Under the pieces are notes generated by a model, which worked only from the letters and a program-made list of their open reading frames with translations, was not told the origin of the DNA and did not search any database. From Bradyrhizobium sp. JYMT SZCCT0428 (GTDB lineage: Bacteria > Pseudomonadota > Alphaproteobacteria > Rhizobiales > Xanthobacteraceae), in NCBI RefSeq assembly GCF_018131075.1, contig NZ_JAFCLS010000043.1, positions 1 to 64,000 on the forward strand: 64,000 bases of DNA. Direction: 5' to 3'. A program made the translations under genes and the position numbers. Positions 48,628 to 51,062 of the stretch are shown one piece after another (the stretch's first letter is position 1; every line of letters begins with the position of its first letter).

Positions 48628-49761
48628 TTACCTCGGAGCAATGTCACCGCGCGCCCATCCGGCGCGCGTTTGTTTTTTGAACGCTTGAAAGCTGCCGTCG
48701 CCGATCGCGTCCCGCATGCCCTGCATCAGGCTCTGATAGTACGCGATATTGATTTCCGACAGCAGCATCGCGCCCAGCGTCTCTCCTGATCGCACCAGAT
48801 GATGCAGGTAGGCGCGCGAGTATTCGCGCGTCGCCGGCCACGTGCTCTCCTCGTCCAGCGGCCTCGGATCGTCGGCATGGCGGGCATTGCGCAGATTGAT
48901 CTGGCCGAAGCGCGTAAATGCCATGCCGTGCCGGCCGTTACGGGTCGGCATCACGCAGTCGAACATGTCGATGCCGCGCGCTACCGCCTCCAGCAGATCC
49001 TCGGGCGTGCCGACGCCCATCAGATACCGCGGCCGATCTTGCGGCAGCCGGGGCGCGGTCTCCTCGATCATGGCAAGCATCACCGCCTGGGGTTCGCCGA
49101 CCGCAAGGCCGCCGATCGCGTAGCCGTGGAACCCGATCTCGACCAGCCCGCGCGCGCTGGTGTGGCGCAGTTCGGGCACGTCGCCGCCCTGCACGATGCC
49201 GAACAGCATGTAGCCGGGAGGCGCGCTCTCGAAGGCGAGTTTTGAGCGCTCGGCCCAGCGCAACGAGAGCTGCATCGCGCGTTCGATGTCGGCGCGTTCA
49301 GTCGGCAGCCGCACGCATTCGTCCATCTGCATGGCGATATCGGAGCCGAGCAGCCGCTGCACCTCGATCGATCGTTCCGGCGACAGTTCGACTTTGGCGC
49401 CGTCGATATGCGAGCGAAAGGTCACGGCGTGCTCGGTCACCTTGCGCAGCTCCGAAAGCGACATCACCTGGAAGCCGCCGGAATCGGTCAGCATCGGCCC
49501 CTGCCAGCCGGTGAACTTCTGCAAGCCGCCAAGGGCTGCGATCCGCTCGGCCCCCGGCCGCAGCATCAGATGGTAGGTATTGCCGAGCACGATATCGGCG
49601 CCGGCATCGCGCACCTCGCGCCAGTGCATGCCCTTCATCGCGCCCGCGGTGCCGACCGGCATGAAGGCCGGCGTCCGCACCACGCCGTGGGGGGTGGAGA
49701 GCCGGCCGAGCCGGGCCTGGCCGCAGGTGATGAGCAGCTCGAAATGATTGGGAACGTCCAT
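48628..49761 (-). CDS. tgt: tRNA-guanine transglycosylase, zinc ligands missing
   Basis: Tgt exchanges guanine 34 of GUN-anticodon tRNAs for preQ1, the key step of queuosine synthesis. The 377 residues keep the fold and active site: [12 protein letters not shown] with Asp93 (~91-102), FGIVQGG (~187) and the nucleophile Asp268 in [14 protein letters not shown]. Bacterial Tgt normally binds zinc through C-x-C-x2-C and a histidine near the C-terminus. Here the aligned stretch is [15 protein letters not shown] (305-319), with Ser306, Trp308 and Thr311 in place of cysteines, and SEINIAYYQ has Ile337 in place of the histidine. All four ligands are lost, so the fold must be held another way. Confidence 0.93.
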
Positions 49762-49833: not shown

Positions 49834-49862
49834 TTGACGACGACAAAAGTCTCCCGCATAAG
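49834..49862 (+). promoter_or_regulatory. Sigma-70-type promoter for the asd leader
   Basis: TTGACG at 49834-49839 and CATAAG at 49857-49862 are 17 bases apart. Transcription should begin about 49868-49870, at the leader-peptide ATG (49871). Confidence 0.6.
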
Positions 49863-49870
49863 TCGGCGCC

Positions 49871-49942
49871 ATGAACGCGACCACCAAACGTACCGCGAAA
49901 ACCAAAGCACCCTTGGGGGGCTCGGGAGCCGTGCGCGCGTAG
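49871..49942 (+). CDS. Putative Thr/Lys-rich leader peptide of asd
   Basis: A 23-residue frame beginning MNATTKRTAKTK, with four threonine and three lysine codons among the first twelve, then APLGGSGAVRA and a TAG stop. Threonine and lysine are both end products of the pathway that asd feeds. No ribosome site precedes the ATG and the predicted transcript starts at or just before it, as in leaderless rhizobial leader peptides such as trpL. The GGGGGGCTC at 49915-49923 inside it can pair with the 5' arm of the terminator. The role as attenuator is inferred. Confidence 0.55.
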   Translation: MNATTKRTAKTKAPLGGSGAVRA

Positions 49943-49967
49943 TCGAACGATCGCATCATCTGAACCG

Positions 49968-49999
49968 AAGCCCCGCCTGAAAAGGACCGGGGCTTTTTT
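49968..49999 (+). terminator. Attenuator-type terminator before asd
   Basis: AAGCCCCG (49968-49975) and CGGGGCTT (49988-49995) form a stem followed by TTTTTATT. It lies on the asd strand between promoter and gene. AGCCCC of its 5' arm (49969-49974) is complementary to GGGGCT at 49917-49922, so an antiterminator is possible. Confidence 0.75.
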
Positions 50000-50036
50000 A
50001 TTGCCTGCAGCACACTCTAACCAAAGGAAGACGAAC

Positions 50037-51062
50037 GTGAGCAACGATCCTGTAGTGGCCATTGTCGGCGTGACCGGCGCCGTCGGGGCCGAATTCATCG
50101 CCACCATGGACAAGCGCAATTTCCGCGTCGGCAAGCTGAAGGCGCTGGCGAGCGCGCGCTCGGCCGGCCAGACCATTAACTTCCGCGGCGAGCAGGTGGT
50201 GATCGAAGAGCTCACCCCACACTCCTTCCACGGCGTCGACATCGCCCTGTTCTCGGCCGGAGGCAGCATTTCGAAGAAGTATGCGCCGATCGCGGTGAAG
50301 TCGGGCGCCGTCGTGGTCGACAATTCGTCCGCCTTCCGGATGGACCCGGACGTGCCGCTGGTCATTCCCGAGATCAACGCCGGCCGCATCCGCGACCACA
50401 AGGGCATCATCGCCAACCCCAACTGCTCGGCGATCACGGCGCTGGTGCCGCTGTGGCCGATCCACAGCCAGAACCGCATCAAGCGCATGATCATCTCGAC
50501 CTATCAGGCCGCCAGCGGCGCCGGTGCGGCGGCGATGGAGGAACTGAAGGAATCGACCCGCGCCAGCCTCGAGGGGCGGCCGTTTACGCCGAAGGTGATC
50601 CCGCTCCCCTACGCCTTCAACGTGTTCAGCCACAACACCGCGATCGATCCTGCGACCGGCTACAACGACGAAGAAACCAAGGTCATCAAGGAGACCCGCA
50701 AGATCTTCGAGGACGAGAAGATCGCGATCGGCGTCACCTGCGTCCGGGTGCCGGTGCTGCGCGCGCATTGCGAGGCCATCACTTTCGAATGCGAGCGCCC
50801 GATCTCGGAGGACGAGGTGCGCGCGATCCTGTCGAAGGCGCCGGGTGTCAGAGTCGTCGATGATCGGGCGAAGAACTACTTCCCGATGCCGATCGACGCG
50901 TCAGGCCAGGACGACGTGCTGGTCGGCCGCATCCGCAAGGATCTCAGCGATCCCACAGGCCACTCGATCGCGATGTTCGTCTCGGCGGACCAGCTGTTGA
51001 AGGGCGCCGCGCTGAACGCGGTCCAGATTGCGGAGCTGCTGCCGCAGCGCGCGATGGCGTGA
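50037..51062 (+). CDS. asd: Aspartate-semialdehyde dehydrogenase
   Basis: Asd reduces aspartyl phosphate to aspartate semialdehyde with NADPH, the branch point to lysine/diaminopimelate, threonine and methionine. The 341 residues have the Rossmann loop VAIVGVTGAVGAEF (~6-19), the catalytic cysteine in NPNCSAI (~128) and VPVLRAHCEAITFE with the active-site histidine. The start is GTG 50037 behind AAAGGAAG. A leader peptide and terminator precede it. A stem-loop (51070-51107) lies just past the stop. Confidence 0.95.
   Translation: MSNDPVVAIVGVTGAVGAEFIATMDKRNFRVGKLKALASARSAGQTINFRGEQVVIEELTPHSFHGVDIALFSAGGSISKKYAPIAVKSGAVVVDNSSAFRMDPDVPLVIPEINAGRIRDHKGIIANPNCSAITALVPLWPIHSQNRIKRMIISTYQAASGAGAAAMEELKESTRASLEGRPFTPKVIPLPYAFNVFSHNTAIDPATGYNDEETKVIKETRKIFEDEKIAIGVTCVRVPVLRAHCEAITFECERPISEDEVRAILSKAPGVRVVDDRAKNYFPMPIDASGQDDVLVGRIRKDLSDPTGHSIAMFVSADQLLKGAALNAVQIAELLPQRAMA

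Follow-up and report, generated by a model that had tools for sequence, protein, structure and literature searches.

A candidate threonine- and lysine-sensing attenuator ahead of a second asd gene in Bradyrhizobium

The window, a stretch of 64,000 nucleotides from Bradyrhizobium sp. JYMT SZCCT0428 (contig NZ_JAFCLS010000043.1, positions 1 to 64,000), carries at 50037-51062 a gene for aspartate-semialdehyde dehydrogenase (asd), for which the NCBIfam models NF011456 and TIGR01296 both score above cut-off. It is one of two Asd genes in this genome; the other, here called the ordinary asd, is 45% identical to it, and its upstream region (L096) lacks a leader of the kind described below. The upstream neighbour of the leader, frame 48628-49761, lies on the other strand and is divergent, so no other gene on the asd strand needs the terminator described below. 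The following features, all on the forward strand, make up the locus.

49834-49862, forward strand: promoter, TTGACG (49834-49839), 17 nt, CATAAG (49857-49862), from sequence reading
49871-49942, forward strand: leader peptide frame MNATTKRTAKTKAPLGGSGAVRA, 23 codons, ATG at 49871 and TAG at 49940-49942, from sequence reading
49880-49906, forward strand: putative regulatory Thr/Lys codons T4, T5, K6, T8, K10, T11 and K12, conserved among 55 aligned leaders
49906-49912, forward strand: segment 1, for which a weak protector hairpin with segment 2 is possible in the fold of 49871-49935
49917-49927, forward strand: segment 2 (GGGGCTCGGGA), 5' strand of the antiterminator, from folding and from duplex and covariation tests
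49931-49937, forward strand: conserved GTGCGCG just 5' of the leader stop; on folding, GUGCG pairs with 49952-49956 inside the antiterminator fold
49965-49975, forward strand: segment 3, partner of segment 2 (antiterminator) or of segment 4 (terminator), from folding and alignment
49967-49999, forward strand: intrinsic terminator, stem 49967-49996 and U-run 49994-49999, from folding and alignment
50037-51062, forward strand: asd, second isozyme of aspartate-semialdehyde dehydrogenase, 341 aa, GTG start

The first-pass annotation had placed a promoter, a Thr/Lys-rich frame of 23 codons and a terminator ahead of the asd GTG, together with a complementarity between GGGGCT (49917-49922) and AGCCCC (49969-49974), and all of these lie where it put them. 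Folding likewise bears out its proposal that the antiterminator excludes the terminator, segment 3 being common to both. The -10 box is 8 nt from the leader ATG, a spacing that fits a transcript start at the ATG itself, and the frame is thus probably leaderless. The accessible part of PMC4842269 describes start sites exactly at start codons as common in Bradyrhizobium, with 192 mapped.

Among the 1,864 short frames of the window (12-45 codons, both strands, nested starts counted), the leader has the highest density of Thr plus Lys, with 7 in 12 codons, the next best frame having 6; it contains no Ile codons. A Thr/Lys score of at least 6 was reached by 5/554 windows of 454 nt taken from the window sequence outside the leader and by 11/960 control segments from other loci, a control rate of about 1% of segments, with segment lengths and frame limits differing slightly between comparisons. 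A consensus promoter/terminator scan lists neither the promoter of the asd leader nor its terminator, and as a whole the leader folds with no more than ordinary stability (z 0.47; 126/200 shuffles are equally stable). Therefore, the case rests on conservation and not on energy.

Comparison with relatives had been named beforehand as a test able to overturn the attenuator reading, and both the peptide and the pairing proved to be conserved. A scan of bacterial and archaeal genomes with the Asd of the window gave 580 loci, the best 80 of which were kept, 51/80 being named Bradyrhizobium (L084 and L054 refer to one record). The window and 59 of these 80 loci form a set of 60 leaders, all of which (60/60) have promoter, Thr/Lys frame and U-tailed terminator in the same order, with a frame of 22-24 codons followed by a GGGGCTTTTTT terminator. 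TTGAC stands 36-39 nt 5' of the leader ATG in 60/60 and CATAAG at the matching offset in 52/60; a T-run of 6-7 is present in every leader, and the terminator stem is 99.4% paired over the 48 leaders of alignment A1 (47 of the 60 plus L083). Most of the conservation falls in the coding run and the complementary segments. In 55 aligned leaders of 23 codons, T5 is kept in 53, K6 in 53, T8 in 51, K10 in 51 and T11 in 54, while the Thr codons vary synonymously among ACC, ACG and ACT. Pairwise differences over codons 2-13 number 3186, 2941 and 5090 at the first, second and third codon positions, and the sole length change in Bradyrhizobium-type Thr/Lys runs amounts to three bases (L025). Differences that pile up at the third position and a single length change of three bases indicate that the leader reading frame is kept.

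The other 21 loci were left out of the set. In 11 of them there is a leader of similar design (Thr/Lys scores 5-11, L072 lowest), in records named Reyranella, Rhodospirillaceae, Parvibaculaceae, Acetobacteraceae, Asaia, Pseudoroseomonas and Acidisphaera and, in one case, in a MAG labelled Marinimicrobia. The remaining 10/21 have no recognised leader (L061, L064, L067, L069, L071, L073, L074, L076, L080 and L081), and for six of them (L067, L069, L071, L076, L080 and L081) only the script's best frame was considered; in L073 and L074 the layout is retained and Thr/Lys codons are few. Five of these loci (L067, L069, L076, L080 and L081) encode Asd proteins 60-64% identical to that of the window and come from MAGs of Planctomycetota, Phycisphaerae and Omnitrophota; no leader was recognised there.

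Several other features of these upstream regions deserve mention. GTGCGCG is kept as nucleotides and read in different frames among relatives, as VRA-stop or CAR-stop; G49933, G49935 and C49936 are invariant in 48/48 aligned leaders, and the motif is also present in the dapA leaders described below. Its TGCG resembles the elemental pause consensus. In six Bradyrhizobium loci (L006, L012, L017, L018, L022 and L025), attenuator and asd are separated by a palindromic repeat (GCATGATCCGGAAAAGTG...CCGGTTTTCCG...ATCATGC). Upstream of asd in L059, L062, L066, L077, L082, L087 and L090 there is a hairpin without a clear U-run, and some of these U-run-poor relatives show GTCTCC/GGAGAC complementarity near the asd ribosome site. 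In such relatives, translation may possibly be controlled instead of transcription, to judge from the sequence.

Support for the antiterminator comes mainly from comparing cognate with swapped strands. Over 31 leaders, which were chosen for carrying a leader and include some close relatives, the cognate antiterminator duplex has a mean of -27.3 kcal/mol vs -23.9 kcal/mol for swapped strands, and 0/20,000 permutations were as good. The window taken alone is unremarkable in this test (12/200 shuffles and 19/30 swaps pair as well). Such a result is not trivially obtained, since a similar test on another candidate pairing failed (1402/10,000). The two strands also change together between species: L060 has GGGCCU/AGGCCC vs GGGGCU/AGCCCC in the window, and L039 and L083 carry GGGCUUCGG with CCGAAGCCC. 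Counts over fixed alignment columns are hard to judge because the G-run shifts between groups, which is why the per-species duplex test was used. In the register of the window, the antiterminator is 77.3% paired with no clear covariation excess (192/500 shuffles reach its doubly changed pairs and 36/500 its covariation score). In the majority register, it is 84.2% paired with three doubly changed pairs, a number reached by 3/500 shuffles; there, a control slid by -2 has a higher covariation score (0.095) than the true pairing (0.033).

A folding walk, in which only the RNA beyond a ribosome with its A-site at codon n was freed and the transcript ended at 49985, relates these structures to the codons of the leader. 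In the window, any A-site position from codon 4 through codon 12 allows the antiterminator to form (-27.2 kcal/mol at codon 12); the structure weakens to -19.8 at codon 13 and -15.8 at codon 14, and is lost from codon 15 on. Codon 12 is the last Thr/Lys codon of the leader. Across the set, the last antiterminator-permitting codon on folding has, in 60/60 leaders, an offset of -1 to +5 codons relative to the last Thr/Lys codon, this boundary being the last codon with pairing, in some leaders after a gap. Once segment 4 is present, no other fold is ever as stable as the terminator, and antitermination must therefore be kinetic. A hairpin of 49906-49912 with 49917-49922 is possible; nonetheless, the untranslated leader up to 49985 folds into the antiterminator. 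Segment 1 would thus be a weak protector, and the ribosome itself must mask segment 2, so that termination at asd seems, in these folding models, to need a ribosome near the stop codon. Because it is the antiterminator that the untranslated leader prefers, a block of translation is expected to produce read-through into asd, the opposite of classical trp superattenuation; this is an equilibrium prediction that may fail kinetically.

We consider it highly probable that the asd leader is a ribosome-mediated transcription attenuator that senses the supply of threonine and lysine. RNA polymerase would start at or beside the leader ATG, where a ribosome would load directly. With charged Thr-tRNA and Lys-tRNA plentiful, this ribosome would run toward the stop codon and mask segment 2 (49917-49927), leaving segment 3 to pair with segment 4 and transcription to end at 49994-49999. 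A ribosome held up at any Thr or Lys codon as far as K12 would instead leave segment 2 free to pair with segment 3; the terminator could then not form and asd would be transcribed. The switch would control the extra Asd isozyme of the JYMT SZCCT0428 genome, the ordinary asd being without such a leader.

A sister leader in the same genome fits the attenuator reading, which the conserved peptide and pairing already support. A covariance model of the asd leaders matches C137:24137-24259 (L145, L232) with an E value of 1.3e-5. This element comprises a leaderless-looking frame, MITNSCAALSSKKGPHPGTRDRRAR, with Lys-Lys, a TTGAC 35 nt 5' of the ATG and a U-tailed terminator, and the gene directly 3' of it is dapA by TIGR00674, with 208.7 bits vs a cut-off of 206.15, a narrow margin. 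This gene is present in 13 of 80 genomes of the family, 3 of the 13 (that of the window included) belonging to the same genus. A leader of the same layout precedes dapA in 12/13 loci (L232-L243), L244 being the dapA locus without one; a further leader ahead of a dapA-like gene (L159) brings the total to 13 dapA leaders. The Thr run is absent from all 13. At least two Lys codons occur in 9/13 (SKK, KVKK, SKSK and KAKAK), and 4/13 have a single Lys codon; the Lys codons of the dapA leaders are mostly AAA. In L232, L233, L235 and L236, the 1:2 hairpin is strong and the antiterminator forms mainly while the Ser-Lys-Lys codons occupy the A-site, as in classical attenuators. Cognate strands have a mean of -25.2 vs -22.8 kcal/mol for swapped ones (38/20,000 permutations as good) over the 13 dapA leaders, which were chosen for carrying a leader and include some close relatives. 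The codon content thus tracks the pathway, with Thr and Lys at the shared step and Lys at the lysine step, which strengthens the attenuator reading and weakens the notion that threonine alone is sensed. The upstream sequences of hom and thrC of this genome were also read, and no such leader was seen there.

The covariance model returned 28 matches in this genome at E values up to 10 (the window, L144-L150 and L245-L264), all of which were read. Apart from the window, L145 and L144, these fall at the ends of longer frames or within such frames, or are bare hairpins. L146, and likewise L158 from outside these 28, were rejected as leaders because they are 3' ends of longer frames. L144 (C90:62407-62527) is a third leader-like frame, MINVVCTANRKNMTRSRWAVEGVAR, alike in promoter-to-ATG layout and terminator and without obvious codon bias, and it precedes a 97-residue DUF1127 protein (Pfam PF06568). 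In the family, matches to the model at E values of at most 0.01 were found in 53/149 genomes, 8/149 of them strong (E at most 1.5e-20; G264 and seven genomes of the window's genus); the genomes lacking a match are incompletely listed, and misses within the genus are possible. Of the weak matches, a minority of which was read, those in G254, G194, G239, G217 and G324 lie directly 5' of dapA-like genes and that in G234 ahead of a second asd.

Identity was the sole basis for separating the two kinds of Asd. Of 190 genomes sampled across the class, 14, counting this one, encode an Asd at least 56% identical to that of the window, and two Asd matches occur in each of the 14. The upstream regions of the 13 other such genes include 8 with a Thr/Lys score of at least 6 and one (L090) with the same layout and a score of 4; no such frame was found upstream of the remaining 4 (L085, L086, L089 and L095). 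For the ordinary asd, scores of at least 6 were obtained upstream of 5/47 genes in the class sample and 3/29 in the family, compared with the control rate of about 1%. The split by identity is not clean, since L110 and L131, counted as ordinary at 48-49% identity, carry leaders like those of the window's kind.

Ordinary asd genes in other genomes of the order are preceded by Thr/Lys-rich leader frames of another design, with scores of at least 6, in 23/38 cases (e.g., L181, L183 and L195; the order set is L160-L199, in which the script missed L179, a locus that has a leader when read as L157). These frames end about 80-140 nt 5' of asd; their Thr and Lys codons mostly cluster close to the stop, and a U-tailed terminator was not seen. 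A pairing between the sequence after the leader and the asd ribosome site, the candidate that failed the strand test mentioned above, is unsupported in these 23 leaders (mean z -0.75).

The chief known examples of RNA-level control in the aspartate family are the Thr/Ile thr leader and the lysine riboswitches of other groups. Enterobacterial thrL senses Thr and Ile and controls thrABC by ribosome-mediated transcription attenuation. The asd leader shares with it the threonine codons, the proposed ribosome-mediated attenuation and an aspartate-family gene; it differs in having Lys and no Ile codons and in preceding asd instead of thrABC.

Closer to Bradyrhizobium, rhizobial trpL/rnTrpL is described in the accessible part of PMC7298713 as a leaderless small frame with codons for the product amino acid and terminator/antiterminator alternatives. 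The asd leader has the same order of product codons followed by alternative structures, with Thr/Lys codons and asd in place of Trp codons and trpE. A second parallel is SEP5 of Sinorhizobium meliloti, which, in the available text of PMC10117765, is translated, carries six codons for Thr and three for Lys toward its 3' end, lies in the 5'-UTR of a gene called aspartate dehydrogenase and is suggested to act as a leader peptide. Like the asd leader, SEP5 is a Thr/Lys-rich small frame in front of a gene; unlike it, SEP5 comes with no terminator or antiterminator in that text, and its conservation is reported only in Sinorhizobium (PMC10117765). Small frames similar to SEP5 are the ones found ahead of the ordinary asd genes of the order. 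The first-pass annotation knew of no described asd attenuator. None was found in the titles and opening lines of abstracts on attenuators and leader peptides, and a term search of the available text of PMC2965389, PMC1273637 and PMC2573895 gave no mention of asd; a 2004 comparative survey of proteobacterial attenuators could contain one. A Thr/Lys leader peptide in front of an aspartate dehydrogenase gene had already been suggested for Sinorhizobium.

Other explanations of the asd leader deserve consideration. Only threonine, or only lysine, might be sensed, the other codons serving composition or an unstructured RNA. We regard this as unlikely, though it is the least unlikely of the alternatives. 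Thr codons do outnumber Lys codons (4-9 vs 1-4 per leader in the 60 leaders), and the Lys codons of Bradyrhizobium-type asd leaders comprise 116 AAA and 9 AAG, vs 98 AAA and 224 AAG in the long frames of the window, a preference that could serve A-richness. However, K6 and K10 are kept in 53/55 and 51/55 leaders, Lys codons stand alone, mostly as AAA, in the dapA leaders at places where stalling would matter, and they recur in the differently designed leaders ahead of the ordinary asd; Thr and Lys are, moreover, both end products of Asd. Slightly less likely still is that the terminated RNA (49871 to about 49999) or the basic peptide acts in trans like rnTrpL/peTrpL, with attenuation as part of the job. 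A terminated leaderless mini-mRNA of like form does arise from rhizobial trpL (the accessible part of PMC7298713), and the last residues of the peptide are conserved along with GTGCGCG; the retention of this motif in nucleotides while its frame differs nevertheless speaks for an RNA structure over a peptide function.

It is improbable that the terminator belongs to an unrelated small gene and that asd is transcribed from a separate promoter farther downstream. The 37 nt between T-run and GTG, where several relatives have extra sequence, would have to accommodate it, but they hardly leave room for a separate -35/-10 promoter and a start; the scan lists no promoter-like site there, though it also missed the proposed promoter, and the leader stays ahead of asd in other genera. 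More improbable again is a metabolite-binding riboswitch or a protein-binding leader. This would suit a structured, conserved RNA ahead of a biosynthetic gene, but conservation is centred on the coding run and the complementary segments, and the sole match of the Rfam 15 covariance models in the window at gathering score is a tRNA; the same models gave no riboswitch match in 20 related leader regions and none in the 13 dapA loci.

Returning to ribosome-mediated attenuation at asd, we incline, by a modest margin, to a wider view in which Bradyrhizobium has a pair of attenuators, with Thr and Lys codons for Asd and Lys alone for DapA, both on extra copies or variants of these enzymes; the ordinary asd would be unattenuated, Thr/Lys asd leaders would recur in other forms across Alphaproteobacteria, ordinary asd genes in much of the order among them, and a block of translation would lead to asd read-through. 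While this kind of switch is known, the Thr/Lys specificity, the matching lysine leader of dapA, the placement on a second isozyme and the recurrence in Alphaproteobacteria are predicted to be its new parts. The asd leader is a compact element of about 130 nt whose codon content would predict its signal, and it adds a case beside trpL of a terminated RNA, probably leaderless, that could act elsewhere together with its peptide. An attenuated second isozyme would suggest why these genomes keep two Asd enzymes. Together, a Thr/Lys leader at asd and a Lys leader at dapA would give these symbionts and related bacteria a control at the branch point of lysine, threonine and methionine synthesis.
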